Positions 7,281 through 42,243 of a DNA stretch of 46,322 nt are shown here, in pieces. Position 1 is the first letter of the stretch, and every line of letters starts with the position of its first letter. The stretch covers positions 1-46,322 of IMG/VR virus record IMGVR_UViG_3300004807_000038, one strand, 5' to 3'. The stretch comes from a virus. The translations under genes and the position numbers were made by a program. The notes below the pieces were generated by a model, which ran no database searches, was not told the origin of the DNA, and worked only from the letters and a program-made list of their open reading frames with translations.

Positions 7281-7932
7281 TAAATATTTCTATTACTCTT
7301 GCGACATAATCAGATCTATTTTTAACAAACAGCTGTGGTTCTTCATGATCTACAGCTATCATTATTGCTATCTGTGGAATCGCAATCTTATACATCCATT
7401 CGAACATCATAGAATAGACGGTAGTCTGGAGAAAGTAGGACTCGATCCACTCTTCTTTCTTTAGTTTGCGAGACGTCTTAAAGTCTATAACTGAAGGCAC
7501 CCCGTCGAACTCTGCGATGAGATCGCACCTTCCCGCCGTCTTCAACACTTTAGAATACAGCGGTAGTTCTATACCGAGAAGGTTATCAACATGCTTATCA
7601 AGAAGATGTTTAATAGAATGGAAAGCGTCCACACCAGAAGGCATTCCTCCCTTGATATAATCTTCTTCATTGAGTACGTATCTCTCAGCCATGGAGTGGA
7701 CTGAGGTACCACGTCTAGCCGCTTGTGTGGAAATCTTATTAGCTTGCTCTTCTCCAACTCTCTTCCTCCATTCTAAAAGACCAGTCTTATCGAGCTTTTC
7801 ACCTAAAACTGTAGTCACCGAACGAAATTTACTTCCGTCCGGTAACACATAGAATCTTCCATTATCAGTGTTCTCTGTAGTTAGACTTACTTCAGGAACT
7901 AAGTTATGCTTGAATATCTTTCTGGTACCCAT
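7273..7932 (-). CDS. PD-(D/E)XK exonuclease (RecB/Cas4-type)
   Basis: A 219-aa nuclease of the restriction-endonuclease-like fold, common in T4-like phages of cyanobacteria and alphaproteobacteria. Motifs: helix with RRGTSVHSMAERY (about 74-86), GRCDLIAEFDG with the metal-binding Asp, and VIDFKTS with the Asp and catalytic Lys (about 148-154). It could process recombination intermediates or degrade host DNA. It is the last gene of the leftward arm, overlaps the upstream gene by 29 bp, and is followed by a terminator inside the convergent gene. Confidence 0.82.
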   Translation of the reverse strand: MGTRKIFKHNLVPEVSLTTENTDNGRFYVLPDGSKFRSVTTVLGEKLDKTGLLEWRKRVGEEQANKISTQAARRGTSVHSMAERYVLNEEDYIKGGMPSGVDAFHSIKHLLDKHVDNLLGIELPLYSKVLKTAGRCDLIAEFDGVPSVIDFKTSRKLKKEEWIESYFLQTTVYSMMFEWMYKIAIPQIAIMIAVDHEEPQLFVKNRSDYVARVIEIFTT

Positions 7933-8554
7933 TAATCACCGTATATTTCGCATCCATTCTAGCAGTGGTAATATAATTACCCGGTCTGCTTGGAGATGGT
8001 GCTACCCACTGAAGAGCAATAGGACCAATTCCTTTTGCCAAATAATATCTTGCGCCGGTCGTAGTCTTACCCCAAGATTGTTGATAGACTATAGTAAGAA
8101 TGTCTAGGTATTTATCGCCGTTGCTCAGAGTGAGCTCAGGCAGCCAGGACTCCCATATCACCGTCTGCGTCCCAGTCTGAAAGGCCGGAGGATTACACGA
8201 CAGCGGATCCATCTTAGGGCGATTCTGATAGAAGTTTCCTATAGTCGCCCACTCACCCCAACCTATAGGTGGGTTCATCACGACCTTTTTGCGGCCGCCA
8301 AATAGTCCACCCTTAGGATAATCGTCTCTCCATTCCATTATACCCTGTCCTGGAGTATATCTCATATACCAAGTATCCTGCCACTGCATGACAGAATTGT
8401 ACTCTACATACAGCATGTCTTTCTTATCATCTGATAATAAGAAGTATGCAACGATGTCGGACATTGATCCATCAACCGCTTTATATGTGAAAGTGCTGAT
8501 CTTTCCATATTCGGGTGACGGCCAATAAGATGGAACAAAGTACGTGTTACTCAT
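7904..8554 (-). CDS. Conserved phage protein of unknown function, 216 aa
   Basis: I do not recognise it. The protein is rich in Trp, Tyr, Gly and Pro (EWRDDYPKGGLFGGRKK, GWGEWATIGNFY), with alternating beta-like segments and no signal peptide. The stop overlaps the exonuclease start and its start overlaps the phoH stop, so it belongs to that operon. The composition suggests a beta-rich binding or virion protein, but nothing fixes a role. Confidence 0.55.
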   Translation of the reverse strand: MSNTYFVPSYWPSPEYGKISTFTYKAVDGSMSDIVAYFLLSDDKKDMLYVEYNSVMQWQDTWYMRYTPGQGIMEWRDDYPKGGLFGGRKKVVMNPPIGWGEWATIGNFYQNRPKMDPLSCNPPAFQTGTQTVIWESWLPELTLSNGDKYLDILTIVYQQSWGKTTTGARYYLAKGIGPIALQWVAPSPSRPGNYITTARMDAKYTVINGYQKDIQA

Positions 8555-9315
8555 GTTATGATCTTCATCTTATCTTTAAGAATGATGTACTCTTTAACAA
8601 GAGCAGATCTGACAATGTCATCTGCATCAAAATCTATTAACTCAAAAGATCTCATTCTCTTTACCACGTGCATGAAGTCTGTTAGACCATTCTTCTCATG
8701 CTCTCTAGTAAAGTCAGTCTGTCTAAAGTCGCCACAGAATATAATCTTACAGTTATGGCCAATACGCGTGATGACAGAGTCTAACTCGTGTAGTGTGGCG
8801 TTCTGCATCTCATCGACAATGACTATACAGTCATTCAGCGTAATACCTCTGATGAACGAGGTAGATATAAACTCAATTAAACCCTTACTCTTTAAATACT
8901 CATAAGAGTCTCCGCGGCCAAACAACTCAGTACATATAGCATAGTATGGGGCTTCATACACTTTGGTCTTCTCTTTAGTATTACCTGGAAGAAAACCCAT
9001 GTCTCTAGTTGGAACAACAGTACGAACTATAACTATCTTTTTATAGAGTTCAGAACCGCTTAATATCTGTTTAAGAGAAAGGTACATAGATAAGAAAGAT
9101 TTACCGGTACCAGCAATCCCATGTAGCATGAGATTCTTTTCGTCTTCAAACGCGTTAAACGTCAATCTTTGATTGTCAGTTAGCGGTTCTATGTTTTTAA
9201 GTCTATAGTTTAACTTTTCTTGATAGTTGTCTTTTTGTTGATGATGATCGTTTCCTTGTCTAAGAAGTCTCTTTTCCCTGCGCGTTAATCTTCTTGTTCT
9301 TGGTTCGTCTTCCAT
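8551..9315 (-). CDS. phoH: PhoH-like ATPase
   Basis: A 254-aa P-loop ATPase of the PhoH family, widespread in marine phages and related to the helicase half of RecD-like enzymes. Walker A is GIAGTGKS (about 66-73), Walker B IVIVDEMQN (about 165-173), and a CGDFRQTD sensor follows near 195. A basic N-terminal stretch (TRRLTRREKRLLRQ) may bind nucleic acid. The cellular role is unclear; RNA metabolism is favoured in bacteria. It starts at ATG 9315 with AAGGGCAG upstream. Confidence 0.9.
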   Translation of the reverse strand: MEDEPRTRRLTRREKRLLRQGNDHHQQKDNYQEKLNYRLKNIEPLTDNQRLTFNAFEDEKNLMLHGIAGTGKSFLSMYLSLKQILSGSELYKKIVIVRTVVPTRDMGFLPGNTKEKTKVYEAPYYAICTELFGRGDSYEYLKSKGLIEFISTSFIRGITLNDCIVIVDEMQNATLHELDSVITRIGHNCKIIFCGDFRQTDFTREHEKNGLTDFMHVVKRMRSFELIDFDADDIVRSALVKEYIILKDKMKIIT

Positions 9316-9326
9316 TACTGCCCTTA

Positions 9327-9569
9327 CTAAAACGTATTCACGGTGCTCCTTGTAAAACCTTTAGAATGCTCTTTCTTAATATTTTTAAGCAAGTCACGGA
9401 AACCCGCGTCGGGTTTTGCCATACCTCTGCCAGAAGAGATCAAAGGAGCTCCGTTTACTAGTTGAGTGACATTTGGATTTTCATCCAAATACGTATCAAG
9501 TGCGGAGATCGACATGAACTCCTCATACTCTTCACCGGTGTCATTGTTTAGAAACTTGTAAGTAGGCAT
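9327..9569 (-). CDS. FmdB-like small protein, copy 2
   Basis: An 80-aa protein starting MPTYKFLNNDTGEEYEEFMS, the start of the FmdB-type zinc-ribbon family, but with no cysteines, so it cannot form the ribbon. The C-terminal part ends KPDAGFRDLLKNIKKEHSKG...NTF, as in relatives found in T4-like phages. It is a neighbour and evident paralogue of the next gene. Role unknown; a virion or regulatory protein are both possible. Confidence 0.65.
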   Translation of the reverse strand: MPTYKFLNNDTGEEYEEFMSISALDTYLDENPNVTQLVNGAPLISSGRGMAKPDAGFRDLLKNIKKEHSKGFTRSTVNTF

Positions 9570-9797
9570 TTAAACGCTCGTCGAGTCTAGATATGGTTTC
9601 TTTATAGAAGTCGCGTCGAGCGGCTTCTTCTTAGCCATGTGAGAATTCTTTCCCATCGTGCCAACGACCATAGGTGCGCCGTTGATGAGAACTTGAACGT
9701 GAGGGTACTTCTCGATCTTTGCTTCCATCTCAGAGATCGTCATGAACTCTTCCCACTCTTCTTGTGTCTGTGTGTTAAGTAGTCTGTAAATAGGCAT
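9570..9797 (-). CDS. FmdB-like small protein, copy 1
   Basis: A 75-aa paralogue of the protein at 9327: MPIYRLLNTQTQEEWEEFMTIS aligns with it over the first 45 residues, including the NGAP motif near 39-42, while the C-terminal thirds differ. Cysteines are absent here too. The ATG overlaps the stop of the gene before it (TAATG). The pair looks like a tandem duplication with divergence at the C-terminus. Confidence 0.6.
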   Translation of the reverse strand: MPIYRLLNTQTQEEWEEFMTISEMEAKIEKYPHVQVLINGAPMVVGTMGKNSHMAKKKPLDATSIKKPYLDSTSV

Positions 9798-9997
9798 TAC
9801 TTTTCAAACCAATCTTTGTCGTATTCTTCGTTGTAATCGTCTTCAGCTTCTAGAAGCTCATCGATGTTCTTAGTGCGAAGAGCGTGCTCTACTCTTTTTT
9901 CTTTTCTCTTTACGAGATACGCACTCGTCGAATGATTAAACTCTTCATTCTCGCTGAAGTCATTCTTTCTAAATTTCTTCAAAGTCGATTTACTCAT
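9797..9997 (-). CDS. Small charged phage protein, 66 aa
   Basis: A small protein with a basic N-terminal half (KSTLKKFRKND, KRKEKRVEHALRTKN) and an acidic C-terminal half (LLEAEDDYNEEYDKDWFEK). No known domain is visible. It overlaps the DUF6433-like gene upstream by 8 bp and the FmdB-like gene downstream by one base, so it is part of the same translated block. Confidence 0.5.
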   Translation of the reverse strand: MSKSTLKKFRKNDFSENEEFNHSTSAYLVKRKEKRVEHALRTKNIDELLEAEDDYNEEYDKDWFEK

Positions 9998-10406
9998 TGA
10001 TTAACCCCGGTAGTCCTTCTTTTACATGTTGAAGTGTGATACCGTTGAACGGCATCTTCTTGTCTTTAATAGCACATAATAGTTTTGCGTCGTTTGGATC
10101 TACTCTCTCAAGTAGCTCGATAAACATAGTCTCACGCTTGTTCTGGTTGAGCGTGTCATGAAAGCCTTTAATATAGTAGCGAAGTTTTTCACACTCTTTG
10201 ATTAGAACGTGTTGCTGGTCTACGAGGTCGTTTGGCTTGTATGGAGGCTCACCGGGAGGAAGAAGCCACTCGACACTTGGATCGAACGCGCCCTGTAGAA
10301 TAATACGTAAGGGTAAACTATCATTGTGTTTAATCGCGTCGATCTTCTCTTGTGTTCTTTTTAATTTTGACACTTTCTCGAGAAATTCATATAGACTAAT
10401 TACCAT
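9990..10406 (-). CDS. DUF6433-like conserved T4-type phage protein
   Basis: A 138-aa protein that resembles the DUF6433 family seen in many T4-like phages of cyanobacteria. The conserved run is EFLEKVSK...KEKIDAIK.ND...LR..LQGAFDPSV, then PGEPPYKPNDLVDQQ, and near the C-terminus ERVDPNDAKLLCAIKDKKMPFNGIT. It is probably all-helical and cytoplasmic. Function is unknown; position upstream of FmdB-like genes and downstream of RNase H is typical of relatives. AAGGAGAG precedes the ATG. Confidence 0.7.
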   Translation of the reverse strand: MVISLYEFLEKVSKLKRTQEKIDAIKHNDSLPLRIILQGAFDPSVEWLLPPGEPPYKPNDLVDQQHVLIKECEKLRYYIKGFHDTLNQNKRETMFIELLERVDPNDAKLLCAIKDKKMPFNGITLQHVKEGLPGLINE

Positions 10407-18692: not shown

Positions 18693-19106
18693 TCACTGCA
18701 CTTGCATATGTAATCGTGCTGTTCCATGGGATTTAAAGCCGAGAGCATTGGCTACGTTTTGATTTACGTCGAGTGTTCTACCTCTGACGAATGGCCCTCT
18801 ATCGGTTACGACGGCTGTTACTGTCCTTCCGTTGGCGGGATTGGTAATCAATACCCTAGTACCAAACGGAAGAGTTCTATGAGCTACACCATAGGTGGCT
18901 CTCATACCCGAAGCTGTCCGTCCACTTCGGTCATTATACCACGAGGCGTTATGACGCCCAGTGGAATAGATATTTATATGTTTAGAGTGTTTACCTTGAC
19001 TCACCTGTTCTATCTGAGATCCTCCAAATAGATCATCTACAAATCCGGCCTGAGCGGTATTCCACGTACCAAACACAAGCGCCATTATAAAAATCACGTA
19101 TTTCAT
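18693..19106 (-). CDS. Exported RlpA-like protein (DPBB domain)
   Basis: A 137-aa protein: signal peptide (cleavage near AQAGF, residue 20), then a double-psi beta-barrel with SWYNDRSGRTASGMRATYGVAHRTLPFGTRVLITNP (about 55-90) and VVTDRGPFVRGRTLDVNQNVANALG (about 99-123). RlpA lytic transglycosylases cut peptidoglycan lacking stem peptides. The catalytic Asp (TDRGPF) is present. With the M15 peptidase it forms a two-enzyme cell-wall unit. Confidence 0.85.
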   Translation of the reverse strand: MKYVIFIMALVFGTWNTAQAGFVDDLFGGSQIEQVSQGKHSKHINIYSTGRHNASWYNDRSGRTASGMRATYGVAHRTLPFGTRVLITNPANGRTVTAVVTDRGPFVRGRTLDVNQNVANALGFKSHGTARLHMQVQ

Positions 19107-19125
19107 ATTATAGCCTTTCAGATAT

Positions 19126-19202
19126 TGGTACTCCTGACAGGACTCGAACCTGTAACCGCGCTGTTATGAGCAGCGAGAACTGACCAATTGTTCTACAGGA
19201 GT
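19126..19202 (-). tRNA. tRNA-Met (CAT), CCA encoded
   Basis: A 77-nt cloverleaf on the leftward strand: acceptor ACTCCTG/CAGGAGT, D-stem GAAC/GTTC, anticodon stem CGCTG/CAGCG with loop CTCATAA, anticodon CAT at 19168-19166, T-arm ACAGG/CCTGT with loop TTCGAGT, A73 and CCA. It is an elongator-type sequence. A tRNA-Ile with lysidine-modified CAT cannot be ruled out from sequence alone. Confidence 0.9.
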
Positions 19203-30085: not shown

Positions 30086-30293
30086 CATTATCCAAAGTCA
30101 GCATGTCGAGTATGTACTGCGACTGCCTAGAAATCTTCTTCTCTTTGCCATCAACGATCAATATGCCTTCACTGACCTTATCTAATTTCGTCTTTGGCAC
30201 TTGAGAGACCTGTTCAAGTGGTATCAATGGTGGTAGTTCTGGCTCTACAGACTTATTACCACTCGATATAACAGTATTAGCAATTATAGGCAT
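30081..30293 (-). CDS. Small protein after the large virion protein, 70 aa
   Basis: A 70-aa protein, Pro-rich at the start (SVEPELPPLIPLEQ) and charged with KEKKISRQ later. No domain is visible. The start shares an A with the stop of the upstream gene (TAATG). It is probably co-expressed with the virion proteins. Confidence 0.45.
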   Translation of the reverse strand: MPIIANTVISSGNKSVEPELPPLIPLEQVSQVPKTKLDKVSEGILIVDGKEKKISRQSQYILDMLTLDNE

Positions 30294-32398
30294 TAGAGCT
30301 TCATTCCCTTTGCACTGTCATGCATCTTGTTTACAGCTGAATGTCTTTCAGCCGGCTTAAGCGAATTCAAATGAGCCACGATTTTTCTTCCATGATCTGG
30401 CGTGATAGTCGTCTTTGATCCATCGTTGTGATGGAATTCGATATGTCTACCAGCCGCGGCCTGACCTGCAACTACTTGAATGTGCTGCTTAGGATCGCGA
30501 CCGGAGTGTGTTGGAGCGTCGTCATCGGCTTTCTTCGGACGACCACGAGCCTCATCAATATTTTCTTCTTTCACATTTTTCTGCATCTCTTTTGCTTTTT
30601 TGAAATGCCATCCACTACCAGGAACACCGGCTTTCTTCAATCTTCGTCCAATCTCTTTGTGCTGTTCGGGTGTAGGATTTTCGATTCTACCTTTGACGAA
30701 TTCATCGTAAGATAGTTTCTTATACTCTTTCTTTTCAGTTTCTTCAATCACGCTATCAGTAAGATCGCGATCTGGAACTGTAGGTCTTACTGGGTCGCCG
30801 TTTGTAGTTGTTGACCCTGCCTTCTTAAAAGAACCTTTTTGAGTAGCGTCCTTTGACTGTCCGAGCGCTTCTACGACTGAATCAAAGTGTGCTAGTTCCT
30901 CTGCTGAGAACTCAACGTCTTCTGTAGCAGGAACTTTAGCAGTTCCTGATAATTTCTTAACAGCTAACTTCTGCATAGCTCCACGACTAGCAGTCGGGCT
31001 ATGAAGTTTTCTATCGATAGGAGTACCAAAATGCATACCTGTTTCTTTACGTAGCTGATCACGAACTTCGATGCCTTTATCTCGTCGAGCAGTCTCGTCT
31101 TTCTTTGACGCTACCATATATGAACCGAGTTTAGCGCCAGAGATCTCATCTACCTGCTCTACTTCTTCTTCAACTTTCTTACCGGCGCGAAGAGCGGCGA
31201 AGTCAGCAGCGTCTATCTCGTCTTTGTCACCTGCCACTGCGGCTATCTTCTTCTGCTTAGCAGACAGCTTCTTTGCGGCTTCAAAGATGTTACCTGTCTT
31301 GTCGCCCTGCAGCGCCAAGAACGAATCTATAAGTGGGTTCTTGACTTCGTCCGTCATCTCTTCTTCTTCCTTTGCTACTAGTTTTGTTCCGAATTTCTTT
31401 TGTCTTGCTTTCTCGTCTTCGTCTTTATTCACTGCGGTGGACTTGAAAGCAGTTGGCATCATGTTCAGCGCGCGACTCGTAGGATTAGCGTATGTCATCG
31501 CTGTCGTGATGGCGTGTCCAGGATCTTGGCTTATCGCTACGTTTCCGGCGTCGTATACCTTACCAGCGTGAGCGCCTAGAGCTCCAACGACTGAAGCTAC
31601 CTTTGCGATATCTTTAATCTTTCCTTCTTCGACGTGTTCTACAGACTCGGGAAGTGAATCTTTATCATTAGCTGCGCTCTTGATAGTTGGATTCCACTCT
31701 ACACCAGTCTTGCCCTTTGGGTTCTTTACTTTGTCTTTATCGTCTGTGTCTTTAATAGTCTTCTTGACCTTGGGCATCTCATCTGCTGAAGGATCGTTAT
31801 TCTCGTCGTCTGCTCTCTTAGCGTCCTCGTCGATTATCTTAGTCATGATCTGACCGGTCTTATTGAGAGTAGATCCAGATGATTTAGGTCCGAAGTCTTT
31901 AAAACGCGCCATGCTCTTCACCTTGCGGCGCTCTTCAGTTCCCTTAGATACGCCATCGACGTCTGCGTATTCTGCTTCTTCCTTCATCTTCTTCTTACCA
32001 GATTCAGTAGCAGATAGAGAGCCGCAATCACCTGAAGACATAGCGCCGTCTGTCGATAGATCGCCTTCTTTAATCTTCTTCTTGCCGCTCTCAGTATTAA
32101 GTTGAGCGCTTACACCACTCATATCAGATGGTGCGCATTCTAGTTTAATATCGTCTGCCTGCTTCATGTTTGTGTGTGCGCCCTTGCCGGCCGCGACGTG
32201 TCCGCCGTTCTGAGACTTATACTTTCTAGTCATAAATGTAGTAGGGGTGCCCTTTGGCTTGTCGTCACCGATAGTTCCAATTCCCTCAGCGACGTTTCTG
32301 ATAGCGTGCTCTAGAGAGATCTTTGGCTCGTCAGAAGGAGTAAACTTACCCTCTGCGATGTTTCTGATCAGGTGTTCTAGTGATAGTCTCTTATCCAT
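30293..32398 (-). CDS. Large low-complexity virion/core-type protein with SLEHxIRN repeats
   Basis: A 701-aa, highly charged (Lys/Glu/Asp) protein with little predicted fold. Two N-terminal repeats, SLEHLIRNIAEG (about 6-17) and SLEHAIRNVAEG (about 28-39), are followed by ESGKKKIKEG and ESGKKKMKEE repeats. The I-A-E/G and I-K-E/G sites fit the (Leu/Ile)-x-Glu cleavage rule of the T4 prohead protease, so it may be a processed head-core or internal protein. This is inference; no function is established. Confidence 0.55.
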   Translation of the reverse strand: MDKRLSLEHLIRNIAEGKFTPSDEPKISLEHAIRNVAEGIGTIGDDKPKGTPTTFMTRKYKSQNGGHVAAGKGAHTNMKQADDIKLECAPSDMSGVSAQLNTESGKKKIKEGDLSTDGAMSSGDCGSLSATESGKKKMKEEAEYADVDGVSKGTEERRKVKSMARFKDFGPKSSGSTLNKTGQIMTKIIDEDAKRADDENNDPSADEMPKVKKTIKDTDDKDKVKNPKGKTGVEWNPTIKSAANDKDSLPESVEHVEEGKIKDIAKVASVVGALGAHAGKVYDAGNVAISQDPGHAITTAMTYANPTSRALNMMPTAFKSTAVNKDEDEKARQKKFGTKLVAKEEEEMTDEVKNPLIDSFLALQGDKTGNIFEAAKKLSAKQKKIAAVAGDKDEIDAADFAALRAGKKVEEEVEQVDEISGAKLGSYMVASKKDETARRDKGIEVRDQLRKETGMHFGTPIDRKLHSPTASRGAMQKLAVKKLSGTAKVPATEDVEFSAEELAHFDSVVEALGQSKDATQKGSFKKAGSTTTNGDPVRPTVPDRDLTDSVIEETEKKEYKKLSYDEFVKGRIENPTPEQHKEIGRRLKKAGVPGSGWHFKKAKEMQKNVKEENIDEARGRPKKADDDAPTHSGRDPKQHIQVVAGQAAAGRHIEFHHNDGSKTTITPDHGRKIVAHLNSLKPAERHSAVNKMHDSAKGMKL

Positions 32399-32401
32399 CT
32401 A

Positions 32402-32848
32402 TTATGCCTTTGTGAAAGATCTGAGCATCCATCCGTGTTTTTGATGGGCAGTTATACGATCTTGAAGAATGTTAGAAATTCCATAGTGCTTATACTTCTC
32501 ACACAACTCATATGCGTGAGTAAGAGACGCTAGTACTCTCTCGTTGTCTGCTGCTAGCTTGCTGATCATGACCAGACCGTCTGGAATGTTCTTAGCTTCT
32601 TCGATAGTAGTAAGCTCTAAGAATCTAGCCATCGATCCTGGAGAGAACGCCCCTAGAGTCCTGATATTTTCTGCAATGATATCGATGCCGTCGTTTACTT
32701 CTTCATAAAGCTCGCCAAAGAACTTATGATACTCTGAAAAGTGTGGACCAGTAACATTCCAATGGTAGTGCTGTGTCTTCACGGCGAACACGTAGCTGTC
32801 CGCAAGGGCAGCCTTCAACGCGTCTACTGGTTGAATCAGTGGAAGCAT
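32402..32848 (-). CDS. dps: Dps-like ferritin
   Basis: A 148-aa ferritin-like protein of the DNA-protection (Dps) family, which forms 12-subunit shells that oxidise and store iron and can bind DNA. KTQHYHWNVTGPHF (24-37), HKFFGELYEEVNDGIDIIAENIRTLG (41-66) contain the ferroxidase set His29, His41, Asp56 and Glu60. The position usually occupied by an acidic ligand four residues after His41 is Gly45, with Glu46 next to it, so activity may be altered. It lies among virion genes and starts on TAATG. Confidence 0.88.
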   Translation of the reverse strand: MLPLIQPVDALKAALADSYVFAVKTQHYHWNVTGPHFSEYHKFFGELYEEVNDGIDIIAENIRTLGAFSPGSMARFLELTTIEEAKNIPDGLVMISKLAADNERVLASLTHAYELCEKYKHYGISNILQDRITAHQKHGWMLRSFTKA

Positions 32849-33900
32849 TACTTACCACCCCCGCCTGAGCTACCGCTCTTTCCTGGAGGTAGACTCTTTA
32901 TAGTACCATCTGCCATTCTTATTGGAACGTTCTTGATCTTGATGTCTTTGTTTGCGGCGGCGTGGACGGTGACCTCTGAGACTTCTGTCTCTTCACAGTT
33001 CCACGCTTTTCTAGACCAGTAGTTTGCACTTGTCTTTTTACCTAGGTTACCCTGTCCAGAAGATCTAGCGCAGTATGACTTCTTACGGGCCGGCTGATCT
33101 TTCTTGATAGACATGTTTGGATCGCCAAAGTTTACTTTCTTTACGTTTCCTGTAGAAGGATCTTTCACGAAGACTTTTGACTTCTTTACGTCGCCCTTCA
33201 TCGGCTTGTTCAGAGGAACTTCCTTGCCGTGATACTTGGCTTCTTCTAGCGCTTCTTTGAACGCTTCCTTGACCGTTCTTGCGAGTCTTGCGACTCTTAA
33301 AACTTTATTAGAAGTCGCCTTCTCACCGACCGTCTTCTCGTCGTATTCAGGCTGACCCGGAGTTGATCTTCTGTATACTTCTGATGGAGGATCGAGTCTT
33401 GAATTAGGTATCGTAGCGTCGTGAGACTTCTTCTCGTGTCCGACGTGCTCTTCGGTCTGCGACGCCTTAAAGTCTACCGCGGTGGGAGCGCCTTTAGAAC
33501 CTGGCTTGCGCATGTGCTCACCGGAACCGGCTTTAATTCTAGCTCGCTTGGCGTGGATGTTGTCCCATAGCCCGCGCTTCTCGTCTAGTAGATCTTCGTC
33601 TAGATCCATAGCAAATCCTCCCGCTATAAATGAGTTTACTCTGTCGAACCCGAACTGTTCTGCTGAACCGCCAAACGACTCGTCCCATATGAAATGACCG
33701 CGCCGATATACCTCTTCTAGTATATTGGTCGGAATTCCTGAATTCTGTGATTTTTTATAGAGGGAGAGCTTAGCTTTGTCAGTGAGGGTGACAGACTCGC
33801 CAAGTCGCACTTCGACTTCTGGCTGAGGTTCAAAAGTTTTAAATCTATCTAACATTGGAGTTTCCCTTGGGTTTTCCAAAAACTTATGCGAGTCTGCCAT
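32848..33900 (-). CDS. Putative head/virion protein with basic C-terminal module
   Basis: A 350-aa protein. The first half has LTDKAKLSLYKKSQNSGIP and a YRRGHFIWDES...AEQFGFDRVNSFIAGG stretch; the second half carries EVPLNKPMKGDVKKSKVFVKD...VNFGDPNMSIKKDQPARKKSYCARSS, a basic module that recurs in phage structural proteins. The C-terminus is glycine-rich. It starts at 33900, behind a late promoter; an internal ATG (33855, after AAGGG) is a possible alternative. Predicted capsid-associated. Confidence 0.6.
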   Translation of the reverse strand: MADSHKFLENPRETPMLDRFKTFEPQPEVEVRLGESVTLTDKAKLSLYKKSQNSGIPTNILEEVYRRGHFIWDESFGGSAEQFGFDRVNSFIAGGFAMDLDEDLLDEKRGLWDNIHAKRARIKAGSGEHMRKPGSKGAPTAVDFKASQTEEHVGHEKKSHDATIPNSRLDPPSEVYRRSTPGQPEYDEKTVGEKATSNKVLRVARLARTVKEAFKEALEEAKYHGKEVPLNKPMKGDVKKSKVFVKDPSTGNVKKVNFGDPNMSIKKDQPARKKSYCARSSGQGNLGKKTSANYWSRKAWNCEETEVSEVTVHAAANKDIKIKNVPIRMADGTIKSLPPGKSGSSGGGGK

Positions 33901-35634: not shown

Positions 35635-36243
35635 TTAAACCTTACTAGAACTGACGATGTCTCGCATCATCTCATCTTTATGCGCCGGAGTCATATGTGA
35701 AGATGCTCCGGCATGGAATGTCTTTTTGTCTCCAGATCTCGCGGCTGCTCTCATCTTAGTACCGGAGATACCGGTAACACCCTCTGAGTCTGGATCCCTA
35801 TCGCCGGCAGAATGAACAGTTATGGACTTAAAGTTATAGTGTCCGTGCCGACCTTCTTTACCGTTGTAGTCATTTAATAATTTATTAAATTCTCCAACCC
35901 TGTCTTGTCCTGCTACTAGATGAAGATGCTGAATTCCATTTCTAAATAAATTTGACGCATGGTGAAGTAGCGTAGGTTGCTCCTTTGACGACGTAGAGAC
36001 GTTAGCGTCTGGAAACGCCCTCTGCGCATGCTTTAGTTTCTGTTCAGGAGTCAATGGATTCTTGTCTCCATCGTGGCTGTGAGATAGAATAATAGAGTGT
36101 GACGCTTTCTTCTTATTAGCTAGTGCAGTTACTTTATCAACCACCTTTTGGTGACCGGCAGTAGGAGGATTAGCCCTCATGAAAGTCATTACGTGAGACT
36201 TTTCTGTCTCTTCTCTTATTAAGAACTGTAAAAATTTAAGCAT
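35635..36243 (-). CDS. Capsid-targeted adenylyltransferase-like enzyme (NMNAT/TagD fold)
   Basis: A 202-aa nucleotidyltransferase fold. The N-terminus MLKFLQFLIRE has the capsid-targeting-like pattern shared with the next three genes (Phe4, Phe7, Leu8, Glu11). MTFMRANPPTAGHQKVVDKV (about 19-38) matches the nucleotide-binding start of NMNAT-type enzymes, VAGQDRVGEF (about 103-112) and GISGTKMRAAA (about 158-168) the phosphate-binding loop. It could adenylylate or cytidylylate a small substrate. It starts eight bases inside the preceding stop. Confidence 0.72.
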   Translation of the reverse strand: MLKFLQFLIREETEKSHVMTFMRANPPTAGHQKVVDKVTALANKKKASHSIILSHSHDGDKNPLTPEQKLKHAQRAFPDANVSTSSKEQPTLLHHASNLFRNGIQHLHLVAGQDRVGEFNKLLNDYNGKEGRHGHYNFKSITVHSAGDRDPDSEGVTGISGTKMRAAARSGDKKTFHAGASSHMTPAHKDEMMRDIVSSSKV

Positions 36244-37447
36244 CTTGATCCTGCTGTTTTTGAAATTGACCTTTTAGAAAGTTCAATCGATTAAATTCTT
36301 GACGGTTATTCATCTTAGAAGCGTTACCATTCTTGTCGACTACAACCGTTCCTTCTGGACCTGTGTGTTGTCCGCCGACGCTGTGATAGTACGGACTGTT
36401 CTTTGCCATGACATTAACGAGGACGTTCTTAGCAGACTGTAGATGGTTGTGAAGATCAAGAGCTCTTTTAAAGTGATCTTGATTGTCCATCACGTGTTTA
36501 ATATTAGCCGCGTGAGCCTGCGCTTTCTTATCTTTCGCTGCCTGCGTCTTAACGCTATCTACGTCTTTCTTATGTCTATTAGTAATGTCTTGCATGTAAC
36601 CCTCAATAGAAGGCTTTCCTTCAGACCTAATCATATTATTGATGTGAGTCTCTAACGTCTTCTCATGACCTTTGAGTGAATCTAGCGCCTCAGGACTCAT
36701 TGCGGCATAAGACTTTTTAGCCTGATTCATATGCGTTAAAAACTGTTTCTGTTCTTCAGGCGTATAGTTATTAGGATTTACTTCTACTGTTGGATCGATA
36801 TTGTTGACGTCTGGATGCTCTCTAAATTTAGATCTAACGCTGTTAGGAAGGGGGCCGGCGTTCATGCTATCTAGACTTCTACCGCCGGTATATTGGGTAT
36901 GAACGACGACGCCTAGTTTTTTCTTCATATTTCTACCCTCAACGCTGTCTGCTGGAGCCGAATATGTAATCGTGTTTGGTGTTACGCTGTGCATTCCATT
37001 CTTCTTAGTAACATCGCCTGTGGTGTGCATTATATCGCCTTGATATATGCCACCATTCTTTGGCATGATTCCAGGAAGGTGGTGAAGTGCGTGTTTTAAT
37101 TTCTCGACTAGTCCTGGAGCGTGACCATGATTCTTCTCAATGTCTTCGTCTGAATAATTTATTTTTGGATTCTTATTAAACGCAGACTTTGTGGCGACGA
37201 AGAAATGTCCAGTCTGAGGATGGTGTCCAAACACTATAGATGGCGCGCCGTCAAACTTAACTGAAGCGTGTGAAGAAGTATTCTTACCAAGAAGCATGTT
37301 ATGTACGTCATTAAGATGCTGATCGGCAGTAGCCACACCTTCATGACCATTATGAATAATATGATCTTCGACGTGTGTAAGATGTTTAAGAGCTTTACCT
37401 TTTTGCTCTTCTTCTGCCTCAATTAAGAATGTCTTAAAATCTATCAT
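36236..37447 (-). CDS. Capsid-targeted ligase-like enzyme (DUF6267-like, KxDG)
   Basis: A 403-aa protein. The N-terminus MIDFKTFLIEAEEE fits a T4-type capsid-targeting peptide with a prohead-protease site after LIE. The next domain has SVKFDGAPSIVFG (about 62-74), a KxDG motif as in the covalent nucleotidyltransferases (DNA/RNA ligases), then KINYSDEDIEKNHG and GIYQGDIMHT. The second half is helical and basic, rich in His, Lys and Gln. I start at ATG 37447, six bases after GGAG; an in-frame extension to 37531 would overlap the previous gene. Ligase or AMP-transfer activity is inferred. Confidence 0.7.
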   Translation of the reverse strand: MIDFKTFLIEAEEEQKGKALKHLTHVEDHIIHNGHEGVATADQHLNDVHNMLLGKNTSSHASVKFDGAPSIVFGHHPQTGHFFVATKSAFNKNPKINYSDEDIEKNHGHAPGLVEKLKHALHHLPGIMPKNGGIYQGDIMHTTGDVTKKNGMHSVTPNTITYSAPADSVEGRNMKKKLGVVVHTQYTGGRSLDSMNAGPLPNSVRSKFREHPDVNNIDPTVEVNPNNYTPEEQKQFLTHMNQAKKSYAAMSPEALDSLKGHEKTLETHINNMIRSEGKPSIEGYMQDITNRHKKDVDSVKTQAAKDKKAQAHAANIKHVMDNQDHFKRALDLHNHLQSAKNVLVNVMAKNSPYYHSVGGQHTGPEGTVVVDKNGNASKMNNRQEFNRLNFLKGQFQKQQDQDA

Positions 37448-37448
37448 A

Positions 37449-38723
37449 TTATTCTCCGGGACCACGAAACACCAAACCGCCGTGTGTTCCGTCAGTGTTA
37501 TTGCGATAATCTTTCTTTCCTGATTCAGCACCTATATTAGCTACTGTTTTTTTCTTAACTGGCGCTGGTTTTACCGGAACCACCGGTGCAGGCTTTTGTA
37601 ATTTCTTTGGAAGCGATACTAATTTAAACGCGCCTGCGGTGCCCTTATGAGGTCCGGAACCGGCCTTTACAGTCTGTTGAGCGACCTTTGTTTCTTTACC
37701 ATTATAATCGCCATATATATCTGATGTAATTCCATTTCCTTTTTTAACTCTAAGGTTTTGAAAATTATCTAAATGCGTATCAGCAATTCTGCTCATATCC
37801 CCAACATGAGAAACTGCGCTACCATCATTTTGAACTTGACTGTGTGCAACAATGTGATGTATTTTTGTTGGAGGAGAAACTTGACCTCTAATATAATTTC
37901 TTAATTGTTCGTCATTCATATTACCCAAGCCAGCATCTAAATGTCTAGCCATCTTCTTTCTTGCTATTACTGACGCGTTCTCTGCTTCTCTAGCCCTTAG
38001 AGCTTCTTTACCCTTTGGTTTAAAGTCTTTATTAGATCCACCTGAAGCTTTCCACGCTTCTCTTTGTGCGCCTTTTAATTTTCTACCAATTTTATATTGA
38101 GCATGACGTTCTGCTTTGGTTCCTGTATATCCAAGACGATCAGCCATATCTTGGTCGTGAGCTTTTTGGATATTAGTTAATGTTCCTGGTTTTAAACCAC
38201 CTTTTTTTTCTAAAGTAGCCAAACCGTCATTTCTATAATTTGGTTGAACTTCTGTTCCATATTTTGCAGAAACACCAACATGTTTTACTGCTCCAGTTTT
38301 TGGATGACGTAGAGTAACAATAAGATCTCCATTAGAATTAGGATCTCTTATACCTGTAGTTTTTTCATGATCTCCGGGTTTGTTGACAGTATCTCTGTTA
38401 GAAGTCCAATGAATATTGGAAATATCATGCCCCTTAAATTCAGGATGGTTTTCTATATATTTTTTTATTGCTTCTGAAGTCTGTCTAGCGTGATTGTCAA
38501 TTTCAGTATATGCCGCCGGACTCATTTTATCTTTTAATTTCTTATGAACCTGTTCAGGCGTACCACCATAGTCTTCAGACTCAGATCTATGGTGTTCTGG
38601 AAGTCGATTTTCTGGATGTAGATGTTTTGCTAGCAATAACTCGTGCAGTTTACCCTTGTCGTCATTAGATTCAGAAGAACTCGCTGCCGCCATTTCAATT
38701 AGATATGTACTAAATCCTAACAT
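37449..38723 (-). CDS. Capsid-targeted nuclease-like protein (PD-(D/E)XK pattern)
   Basis: A 424-aa protein. MLGFSTYLIE is again a capsid-targeting-like start. The N-terminal domain has GKLHELLLAKHL (Glu helix, about 24-35), SNGDLIVTL (Asp, about 129-137) and HVGVSAKYG (Lys, about 148-156), the order Glu/Asp/xxK of the PD-(D/E)XK nucleases. The middle has KIHHIVAHS (about 290-298), an HNH-like stretch. The tail is Lys/Pro-rich. The DNA is more AT-rich with fewer AGA/CTA-type codons than neighbours, a sign of recent transfer. Nuclease activity is inferred from motifs only. Confidence 0.55.
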   Translation of the reverse strand: MLGFSTYLIEMAAASSSESNDDKGKLHELLLAKHLHPENRLPEHHRSESEDYGGTPEQVHKKLKDKMSPAAYTEIDNHARQTSEAIKKYIENHPEFKGHDISNIHWTSNRDTVNKPGDHEKTTGIRDPNSNGDLIVTLRHPKTGAVKHVGVSAKYGTEVQPNYRNDGLATLEKKGGLKPGTLTNIQKAHDQDMADRLGYTGTKAERHAQYKIGRKLKGAQREAWKASGGSNKDFKPKGKEALRAREAENASVIARKKMARHLDAGLGNMNDEQLRNYIRGQVSPPTKIHHIVAHSQVQNDGSAVSHVGDMSRIADTHLDNFQNLRVKKGNGITSDIYGDYNGKETKVAQQTVKAGSGPHKGTAGAFKLVSLPKKLQKPAPVVPVKPAPVKKKTVANIGAESGKKDYRNNTDGTHGGLVFRGPGE

Positions 38724-38725
38724 AA

Positions 38726-39379
38726 TCAATTTTCCTTCGATGGTTTTGGCTTTACTGAAGTCGTCGTCACTACAACCTCGCCAGATTCGGGATCATGCTT
38801 TACGTGATGTGCATGAAATTCTACTTCTGGATGATGTTTCTTAAGAGCGATAAACTTCTTTAGATTGTCTTCTGAGTCGTCATATAGATGAACTTTTTTA
38901 TATTTATTCTTGTTTATCTGGTCGTGCATGATAGCGGCTTTGGCGTCAGCAGCCTTCATTGGAAGGTTACCTGCTCTTCTGACGTGTATCTGTCCGATGT
39001 CTATTCCATACTTTGACATGTGATGGGCGAACTTCTTCTGATCGTCTAGGTCTGATCGAGCGGTCAGTATCTCTACATTCTTGTTGTTCTTATGGATAGC
39101 CTTCATCTTGGCTATCATCTTTCTAATAGGTCTAGCGTGCTCACCGAAAGCGTCTGAGCTTCTAAACTCTCTAAAGTCGTAAGAATGGTTGTCTGGAAGG
39201 GTGTGAGTATTGAACTCAGAGCTCGTTAGAGTCCTTGATCTATTGCCTTTTGGATCTAGAACGTGGATTCTCATACCTTCTGGATCGTGATGGAATAGCG
39301 TATCGTCTATGTCAAAAGCATGAAGAGTCTCAGAATCTTCGTCTTTCTTCTCGCAGATGAATTGATTAAAAGATATCAT
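38726..39379 (-). CDS. Capsid-targeted HAD-like phosphatase
   Basis: A 217-aa protein. MISFNQFICE is the fourth capsid-targeting-like start. It is followed by a HAD core: AFDIDDTLF (about 19-27) with nucleophile and acid Asp, VEILTARSD (about 94-102) motif II, and VHLYDDSEDN (about 144-153) motif IV. Such enzymes include nucleotidases and polynucleotide 3'/5'-phosphatases (as in T4 Pnkp). I start at ATG 39379, six bases after AAGG, rather than 39385. It is the first gene after a late promoter. Confidence 0.72.
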   Translation of the reverse strand: MISFNQFICEKKDEDSETLHAFDIDDTLFHHDPEGMRIHVLDPKGNRSRTLTSSEFNTHTLPDNHSYDFREFRSSDAFGEHARPIRKMIAKMKAIHKNNKNVEILTARSDLDDQKKFAHHMSKYGIDIGQIHVRRAGNLPMKAADAKAAIMHDQINKNKYKKVHLYDDSEDNLKKFIALKKHHPEVEFHAHHVKHDPESGEVVVTTTSVKPKPSKEN

Positions 39380-39412
39380 GACCATCCTTGTAATTTTTAA
39401 GATATTTATATA

Positions 39413-39420
39413 ATATCTAA
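39413..39420 (-). promoter_or_regulatory. T4-type late promoter TATAAATA for the cargo-enzyme operon
   Basis: Exact octamer reading leftward, 33 bp before the HAD gene, just beyond the terminator of the candidate RNA. It would make the four capsid-targeted enzymes late products. Confidence 0.65.
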
Positions 39421-40730: not shown

Positions 40731-40828
40731 GGGTTACCCAACAGCTGCATGGTAATCTTAAGAAGTACGCTAGCGCTTCCTGCTATACATAAAGCTTTTA
40801 ATAGTATAACTACTCTAGGATCTAACAT
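40727..40828 (-). CDS. 33-aa membrane peptide between helicase and ferredoxin
   Basis: MLDPRVVILLKALCIAGS... is a hydrophobic helix followed by a short tail (residues 8-30). The start shares an A with the gp41 stop (TAATG) and its TGA overlaps the ferredoxin ATG, so it is a coupled gene rather than noise. Function unknown. Confidence 0.55.
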   Translation of the reverse strand: MLDPRVVILLKALCIAGSASVLLKITMQLLGNP

Positions 40829-42243
40829 TATTTAAACCCGCTAAACATCGACCTGTCGAACTTAGACGCCGGCTTATTTCTTTCAAACTCTTCTTCGCCA
40901 AATTTAGAGTTGTCAAATACCGACTTCGTAGAAGGTCCATCTAGAATACCCTCTTGAGCAGACTGCTCAACATCGTAAAGTCGCATCTTTGAGCGATCAA
41001 TACCAACGACGAACCTACGATTGCTCCCTGGATCATTATAGCGATTCTTGAGCTGCTTAACCATGATCTGATTGAGTGACTCAAGCTCTTCTGTCGAGAT
41101 GAGTGCAAACATAAAATCAGCTGTGGCCGGGAGTCCAAAGGATTCTGATGTATCTTCCAGTCCCACGTCGCTGTTCGAATATCCGCCTCGAGTTGTTTGA
41201 GTCGCAGAGACGATAGGTACATCGTATTCCACGGCGAGTCCTCGAAGCTCTTCTGCGATTGCCTTGATATAGGTATAAGAATTGACGTTGGCTCCATACT
41301 TCATCCTCGATGACATACAAATGTTGAGATAATCAATATAGATAATATCCGGCTGAAAGTTCTTCTTGATCTTTAACTCATTGAGAAGATGTCTAAAGTT
41401 TGCAGATCCGGCGCATGCAGTCGGATATTCTTTGATGATAAGTTTACCAGTCGTCTTTGACTTCAACGTACCTATTTTAGAGTCATAAGACTGCTTTGGC
41501 AGCAACTCAAGTTCATCCATAGTGACGTTGAGGAGATTAGCGTCGATGCGCTCGGCGATTCTCTCCTCAGCCATCTCTAGCGTAATGTATAGTACATTGA
41601 GTCCTTTGGAGAGGTTCCCTGCTGCGCAGTGACACATGAATAGCGATTTGCCGACACCTGTACCTGCGAGTGCGATATTGAGAGTCTTGTTCGGCAGGCC
41701 ACCGTTTGTGATGGCGTTAAAGTAGTCAAGATCGAATGGAACTCTCTTCTCTTTACGGTGGTAGAACTCGTATCGTTCATCAGTATCCACCAAGAAATCA
41801 TGACCAATATGGGTGTCAAAAGAAACAGCAAGGGCATCAGTAAGTATTTGAGGAATCGAACCTTTTGAGATTGAAGCATTCTTCTCATCCATTATTTTGA
41901 TCGACTTCATGATCGCAAGATAAAGTGATTTATCTTGACAGAATTTCTCTGTCTGATCCAAAATCCAATCTAGTTTAGTGTTTGGGTCCTGTGACAGCGA
42001 CCCGATTATGTCTTTGCACGACTTGAAGCTGTCTTCGCTTAAGCCGTCCTTATTACTTAGGTCGATCGAGAGAGCCTCGATCGATGGAAATGAATTATAT
42101 TTCTTAACGTATTCATCGACCAACTCAAAGACTGTTCTCTCTGAGTAGTCTGTAAAATATTCTGTCTTTAAAAACGGTATAGCCTTCCTGCTAAAATCCT
42201 CGTTAAACACGAGATTAGAAAGTATGACGCATTCGATATTCAA
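40828..42243 (-). CDS. 41: Replicative helicase gp41
   Basis: A 471-aa DnaB-family hexameric helicase that unwinds the fork 5'-3' and works with primase gp61. The N-terminal domain is divergent. The RecA-like C-domain has GTGVGKSLFMCH Walker A (about 193-204), LYITLEMAEERIAER (about 217-231), IIYIDYLNIC Walker B and VSATQTTRGGYS (about 346-357). The C-terminal tail is Ser/Phe-rich and acidic. Length is close to T4 gp41 (475 aa). Confidence 0.95.
   Translation of the reverse strand: MNIECVILSNLVFNEDFSRKAIPFLKTEYFTDYSERTVFELVDEYVKKYNSFPSIEALSIDLSNKDGLSEDSFKSCKDIIGSLSQDPNTKLDWILDQTEKFCQDKSLYLAIMKSIKIMDEKNASISKGSIPQILTDALAVSFDTHIGHDFLVDTDERYEFYHRKEKRVPFDLDYFNAITNGGLPNKTLNIALAGTGVGKSLFMCHCAAGNLSKGLNVLYITLEMAEERIAERIDANLLNVTMDELELLPKQSYDSKIGTLKSKTTGKLIIKEYPTACAGSANFRHLLNELKIKKNFQPDIIYIDYLNICMSSRMKYGANVNSYTYIKAIAEELRGLAVEYDVPIVSATQTTRGGYSNSDVGLEDTSESFGLPATADFMFALISTEELESLNQIMVKQLKNRYNDPGSNRRFVVGIDRSKMRLYDVEQSAQEGILDGPSTKSVFDNSKFGEEEFERNKPASKFDRSMFSGFK

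Follow-up and report, generated by a model that had tools for sequence, protein, structure and literature searches.

We analyzed a window of 46,322 nucleotides (positions 1 to 46,322 of the IMG/VR virus record IMGVR_UViG_3300004807_000038) and identified on its minus strand, at 39379-35635, a run of four consecutive genes, each of which starts with a capsid-targeting-like N-terminal peptide (tag). The genes encode a HAD-type protein, a nuclease-like protein, a DUF6267 protein and a nucleotidyltransferase. Very probably, these proteins are head cargo that is tagged, trimmed by the gp21-family prohead protease and delivered together with the genome. For this phage, packaging of the four enzymes in the head with trimming is predicted from sequence with high confidence; their injection into the host, proposed because T4 does so, is likely by analogy. 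Since the tag is shared with the head-loading address of T4, this T4-like aquatic phage probably injects DNA and nucleotide enzymes as a ready-made set.

The four genes are tightly coupled, with neighbours abutting or overlapping, and start at ATG codons at 39379, 38723, 37447 and 36243 (minus strand). For the HAD gene, an AAGG Shine-Dalgarno sequence a few nucleotides upstream favours the MISF start over an upstream MVM start. The four N-termini named in the first-pass annotation were all found where it had placed them, and the pattern that it described (aromatic residues at 4 and 7, Leu/Ile at 8, Glu at 10 or 11) holds in all four proteins, with Phe at position 4, Phe/Tyr at 7, Leu/Ile at 8 and Glu at 10 (11 in the nucleotidyltransferase). 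The tag ends (ICE, LIE, LIE and IRE) fit the (Leu/Ile)-x-Glu cleavage consensus. A strict tag pattern, M..[FYW]..[FYW][LIVM].{1,2}E, matches 4 of the 74 open reading frames (ORFs) of the window, which are exactly the four run genes, and none of the 271 internal methionines in the window. Shuffling of the N-termini of the 74 ORFs gives 0.05 expected matches against the four seen, and the probability that four random genes among 74 are consecutive is about 6e-5. In T4, used as a positive control, the strict pattern recovers IPII, IPIII and gp61.1. In the negative controls (lambda, T7, N4 and SPO1) it occurs in 0 of 391 ORFs, and no PF03420 protease was detected in these phages. Simple chance as the source of the four tags was rejected by the shuffles and the control phages.

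In the propeptide of the T4 internal protein (IP) IPIII, targeting depends on residues 4 and 7, and gp21 processing on residues 8 and 10 (PMC9026906); the residues conserved in the four window tags are those shown experimentally to matter in IPIII. Foreign enzymes fused to IPIII, or to its tag alone, are taken into T4 heads and then into cells (PMC9026906). The leader MKTYQEFIAE had been ascribed to IPI-IPIII in the first-pass annotation, which stands for IPII and IPIII only, the IPI propeptide being similar but not identical (PMC9026906). Among the T4 proteins Ip1-3 the leader is the only common part, and the GmrSD restriction enzyme that is blocked differs from one protein to the next (PMC12373910); thus, one tag can serve arms-race cargo. 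Both the tag and tag searches for internal proteins are already known in T-even phages (PMC12373910). The window run resembles IPI-IPIII in the 10-residue N-terminal peptide with its aromatic residues at 4 and 7, Leu/Ile at 8 and Glu at 10, as well as in the unrelated payloads under one tag, the presence of gp21 in the same genome and the variable cargo. However, the T4 IPs are small and basic and inhibit type IV restriction enzymes of the GmrSD kind (PMC12373910), whereas the window payloads are predicted enzymes of 22-47 kDa, and their genes lie in one late operon downstream of gp41. The T4 hypothetical protein gp61.1 (54 residues; 18966-19130, between gp41 and gp61) starts with MKTFKEFIKE, which fits the tag pattern; the cargo cluster of the window falls in the same interval. 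The four window enzymes are not homologous to T4 Alt, a lone enzyme whose target is host RNA polymerase. Their likeness to this ADP-ribosyltransferase lies in the proposed route, as Alt is an enzyme that is carried in the head, undergoes cleavage by gp21 and is then injected (PMC9026906).

A 125.5-kb contig (G001) contains the whole window at bases 1723-48044, with 100% identity. A gp21-like protease, for which a search had been suggested, is absent from the window itself but present in this parent contig at 67894-68328 (PF03420, E=1.3e-40). G001 also encodes gp23, and its other head and tail genes were assigned by position and sequence. The gp23 protein of G001 has a predicted LTE/T cleavage site (YQTLTE) at the aligned T4 site, and the aligned region contains L-x-E in T4 (FGSFLTE), C48C1 (GGFLTE), Melnitz (AFLSE), HTVC008M (AFLGE) and S-PM2 (GMLNE); cleavage points other than that of T4 were assigned by comparison with T4. 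The late promoter that had been placed at 39413, at the head of the run, was found nearby as the T4-type element TATAAATA. G001 has 33 copies of this element, where 11.5 would be expected, and it also stands just upstream of the gp23, gp22 and portal genes; therefore, the four enzymes appear, as judged from promoter sequence, to be under late, head-gene control. The run adjoins the replication genes gp41 and uvsX. The cargo cluster is located downstream of gp41 in the window and in many relatives, and DUF6267 and cytidylyltransferase genes likewise follow gp41 in many Kyanoviridae.

The tblastn search of the HAD and nuclease payloads against named phages gave no match, and their relatives were therefore drawn from metagenomic contigs. 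Alignment of homologue N-termini, proposed earlier as a check on F4/F7/L8/E10, revealed that the tag is kept in 15 of 17 distinct N-termini of the HAD family, in 48 of 80 DUF6267 relatives (taken without selection) and in 12 of 29 N-termini of the nucleotidyltransferase family. In the nuclease family, M1, F4 and E10 do not vary, even among relatives with identity as low as 28%. The second slot of the run is filled by two sequence groups without mutual payload similarity, both of them tagged; one relative with an 84%-identical HAD protein has in this slot a tagged protein without detectable similarity to the window nuclease. Among other tagged enzymes in the relatives are true adenylate kinases (Pfam ADK, E=3e-41 and 3e-40), a PNK-like/zeta-toxin-like kinase and a 5'-3' deoxyribonucleotidase. 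In L138 (468-2225), three consecutive proteins start with MENWRQYLKE or close variants and apparently form another tagged run.

In published work, mass spectrometry detected tagged homologues or other tagged enzymes in the virions of five related phages (S-SM1, S-CREM2, S-SCSM1, S-SZBM1 and S-CRM01). These cyanophage virion enzymes have the same tag and include a nucleotidyltransferase homologous to that of the window, in contrast to the HAD and nuclease payloads, for which tblastn gave no named-phage match. The cytidylyltransferase T4-GC190 detected in S-SM1 virions (Sullivan et al. 2010, PMC3037559) starts with MKKFSAFLNE and is the sole strict match among the 215 ORFs of that genome. S-CREM2 has only three strict matches, an S-adenosylmethionine (SAM) hydrolase (MKDFDSFLEE), a kinase (MKRFDAFLTE) and a cytidylyltransferase (MKNFSSFLTE), which are exactly the three 'regulatory' proteins detected in its virions (PMC10665884); taken alone, this overlap is of modest hypergeometric significance (P=0.013, using an approximate count of coding sequences). 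The S-CREM2 DUF6267 protein is untagged and does not appear in the virion list (PMC10665884). Similarly, the virion list of S-SZBM1 includes the cytidylyltransferase (MRFRQFIIE) and not the untagged DUF6267 protein (PMC9146016). The NMNAT of S-SCSM1, a virion protein (PMC9602691), starts with MKSFLQFLKE, and the kinase reported in S-CRM01 virions starts with MISFDQFLSE. The cytidylyltransferase of S-PM2 is untagged and was not detected in virions (PMC3037559), but it is not a clean negative because the DUF6267/cytidylyltransferase frame is disrupted. At 103025-104804 of S-PM2, the frame appears to change inside DUF6267 and the second half is in frame with the cytidylyltransferase, owing to a sequencing error or a frameshift. 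No packaging signal is named for virion enzymes in the covered passages of the cyanophage proteome papers. The claim of the first-pass annotation that the enzymes are packaged and gp21-trimmed is well supported by the match to the IPIII residues, the gp21 gene of the same genome, the late promoter, the tags of the homologues and these virion detections. A further S-CREM2 virion protein, annotated as a CRISPR-Cas9 nuclease (7704-10313), shows the tag-like sequence FASFMAE roughly 18 residues from its start, and in S-CRM01 and S-N03 the neighbours of its homologues also start tag-like.

Several observations weigh against the head-cargo explanation. The virion proteomes are those of relatives, the window phage itself being uncultured. 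The papers on S-CREM2 (PMC10665884) and S-SCSM1 (PMC9602691) warn that such enzymes may be preparation contaminants, and a tagged small protein, S-SZBM1_191 (MKSFKSFLSE), is not among the 30 virion proteins listed (PMC9146016). HTVC008M and S-PM2 have gp21 but no strict-pattern match; therefore, the tag rule is not universal. Some DUF6267 relatives are untagged or keep F4/F7 without Glu, and the ligase-like fold match of DUF6267 is weak (E 0.017). The DUF6267 relatives L129, L136, L158 and L161 have N-termini such as MFSFKGFITKD, in which F4/F7/I8 are kept and Glu is replaced; these proteins look as if they were targeted but not cleaved.

Table. Tags, payload genes and flanking features of the four-gene run (window coordinates)
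Feature	Position	Strand	Details
Tag MISFNQFICE	39350..39379	-	HAD-type protein; predicted cleavage after Glu10
Tag MLGFSTYLIE	38694..38723	-	Nuclease-like protein
Tag MIDFKTFLIE	37418..37447	-	DUF6267 protein
Tag MLKFLQFLIRE	36211..36243	-	Nucleotidyltransferase; predicted cleavage after Glu11
Putative HAD-type phosphatase, 217 amino acids	38726..39379	-	DxDxT motif FDIDDT; phrog_415 E=6e-8
Putative PD-(D/E)XK nuclease, MspI/HinP1I-like fold, 424 amino acids	37449..38723	-	AlphaFold2 + Foldseek
DUF6267 protein, weakly ligase/covalent-nucleotidyltransferase-like, 403 amino acids	36236..37447	-	PF19782 E=4.5e-88
Putative cytidylyltransferase/NMNAT-like nucleotidyltransferase, 202 amino acids	35635..36243	-	phrog_3041 E=1.6e-55, phrog_395 E=1.7e-37
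T4-type late promoter TATAAATA	39403..39410	-	24-31 nt upstream of ATG 39379
gp41 replicative helicase	40828..42243	-	phrog_19 E=1.6e-123; syntenic anchor

We infer the activities of all four enzymes. Of the four folds guessed in the first-pass annotation, the PD-(D/E)XK nuclease is borne out by a structural match and the HAD phosphatase and nucleotidyltransferase by their motifs; the ligase is upheld weakly. As suggested by its sequence, the first payload looks like a HAD phosphatase, with a nucleophile motif DxDx(T/V) (FDIDDT) that is kept in the family as FD[IM]D[DE]T; its phrog_415 match is a weak match to the polynucleotide kinase family. The fourth payload looks like an NMNAT-like nucleotidyltransferase by its motifs NPPTAGH (TAGH) and GISGTKMR, which fit the (H/T)xGH and ISSxxxR types, and its score against Pfam PF01467 is below the cut-off.

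The second payload belongs to no family in Pfam, PHROGs or PADLOC, and structure alone gave its fold. The AlphaFold2 model has a predicted local distance difference test score (pLDDT) of 80.7, with residues 1-18 at low confidence and the tag peptide predicted as a short helix. In a Foldseek search, the model matches MspI (E=1.7e-4, probability 1.00) and HinP1I (E=3.8e-4), and the protein thus looks like a PD-(D/E)XK nuclease of MspI/HinP1I-like fold. Alignment of the family showed E28 to be invariant, as are, in nine sequences, the residues of D133-x18-S152-x-K154. The D-x18-S-x-K spacing, which we take to be that of HinP1I, is shared along with the predicted fold; unlike the type II restriction endonucleases MspI and HinP1I, the window nuclease is capsid-tagged, and no methyltransferase partner was seen adjacent to it.

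The DUF6267 family has K64, D66 and G67 (KxDG, motif I) and E365, G366 and V368 (EGxV, motif IV) invariant in 33 sequences; in the ligase motif V (KxK), K378 is invariant and the second lysine was not seen. The top PDB folds for its AlphaFold2 model (pLDDT 89.7; residues 1-21 low-confidence) are DNA and RNA ligases, with weak scores (E 0.017-0.1, low template modelling score). The protein resembles ATP/NAD-dependent DNA and RNA ligases in the KxDG and EGxV motifs and the best PDB folds, and differs from them in the weak fold score, a large helical segment and the incomplete motif V; we describe it, weakly, as a ligase-like KxDG protein. Phmmer and profile searches against PDB sequences gave nothing useful for the HAD or DUF6267 proteins.

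The first-pass annotation had suggested end-healing and sealing by phosphatase plus ligase. In a narrower version of the head-cargo explanation, the injected proteins would form such a kit and repair defence-cut nucleic acid, as T4 Pnkp/Rnl1 do after PrrC. The polynucleotide kinase match of the HAD protein, the KxDG and EGxV motifs and ligase-type folds of DUF6267, and the tagged kinases with PNK-like matches that some relatives add are in line with such a kit. However, this claim is unproven, as the run contains no kinase and DUF6267 lacks the full ligase motif set, with the second lysine of motif V not seen. In addition, the presence of a packaged restriction-endonuclease-like nuclease and an NMNAT-like enzyme in the same set suggests jobs other than end-healing, and other relatives carry adenylate kinase or deoxynucleotidase instead; we therefore regard the kit as a doubtful, tentative option.

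Alternatively, the four proteins could be packaged as scaffold-like proteins of the assembly core that help to build the head and hardly enter the cell, by analogy with IPIII, mutants of which affect T4 head morphology (PMC9026906). This role is improbable, given that the payloads are enzyme folds with conserved catalytic residues, that the cargo varies among relatives in a way that core scaffold genes do not, and that the T4 IPs and Alt enter the cell, where Ip1-3 act (PMC9026906, PMC12373910). Slightly less probable still is a tag that docks the enzymes, active in the cell after synthesis, to the membrane, replisome, sliding clamp or host polymerase. A predicted short helix could bind many partners, and the genes adjoin gp41 and uvsX, but the conserved residues are exactly those that IPIII needs for targeting and processing (PMC9026906), the promoter is of the late type, tagged homologues are reported in purified virions, and phages without detectable gp21 have no tag match. 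Finally, a leader shared by coincidence or through a duplicated translation-initiation region, the peptide itself being without function, is conceivable for genes that overlap or abut but is hardly credible, as the tags far exceed the shuffled expectation, the leader codons differ among the four genes while the residues are kept, and the tag persists across relatives and on unrelated payloads.

Under the favoured reading of the run as injected head cargo, the four enzymes would be made late and transcribed together with the head genes. Each protein would dock into the prohead core through the aromatic residues 4 and 7 of its tag; cleavage after (L/I)-x-Glu10/11 by the gp21-family protease would then free the enzyme inside the DNA-filled head. 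The trimmed enzymes would be retained in the filled head, enter the host with the genome at infection, and act before any phage gene expression. The cargo would cover nucleic-acid and nucleotide chemistry, with an endonuclease, a HAD phosphatase, a ligase-like nucleotidyltransferase and an NMNAT-like adenylyltransferase. The MspI/HinP1I-like endonuclease would most likely cut the DNA of the host or of a competitor, or a particular target in defence. Candidate tasks for the set are early nuclease attack on host or competitor DNA, nucleotide/NAD supply or conversion, end repair, and counter-defence.

In the open-licence literature we found no earlier report that links these enzymes to capsid-targeting peptides. 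As far as searched there, the novel elements are the connection of the tag with enzymes as cargo of Kyanoviridae-like phages, the operon of four enzymes, the payload that resembles a restriction enzyme, and the agreement of the tag rule with several unexplained virion proteomes. On balance, we lean towards a general cargo code, in which Kyanoviridae-like phages of the T4 superfamily load their heads with modular enzyme sets (adenylate kinase, NMNAT, nucleotidase, kinase, SAM hydrolase, ligase-like) by means of one tag of ~10 residues on otherwise ordinary enzymes, including a virion-borne restriction-endonuclease-like nuclease that would act on host-cell DNA before phage gene expression; injected proteins would then be predictable from sequence alone. 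Several groups could not tell cargo from contamination for the cytidylyltransferases, kinases and SAM hydrolase of cyanophage particles, and the tag offers a mechanism and a testable sequence rule for such enzymes. With it, the internal-protein system of T4 would reach beyond small inhibitors to enzyme sets in abundant aquatic phages, and it points to a takeover of the host's nucleotide and DNA metabolism before transcription, in which a packaged restriction-enzyme-like nuclease takes part.

Just downstream of the run, on the same strand, the window encodes Dps/ferritin-like and DUF5824-like proteins (32402-32848 and 32848-33900), which have their own late promoter (33929). In phage C48C1, a similar small protein carries the tag MITFKKYLEE. 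Further along the minus strand, at 30293-32398, is a 701-residue protein without a family match, in which a motif occurs twice at the N-terminus, as SLEHLIRNIAEG and SLEHAIRNVAEG. Both copies end with I/V-A-E-G, and the repeated motif is possibly a second kind of prohead-protease site or a sorting signal.

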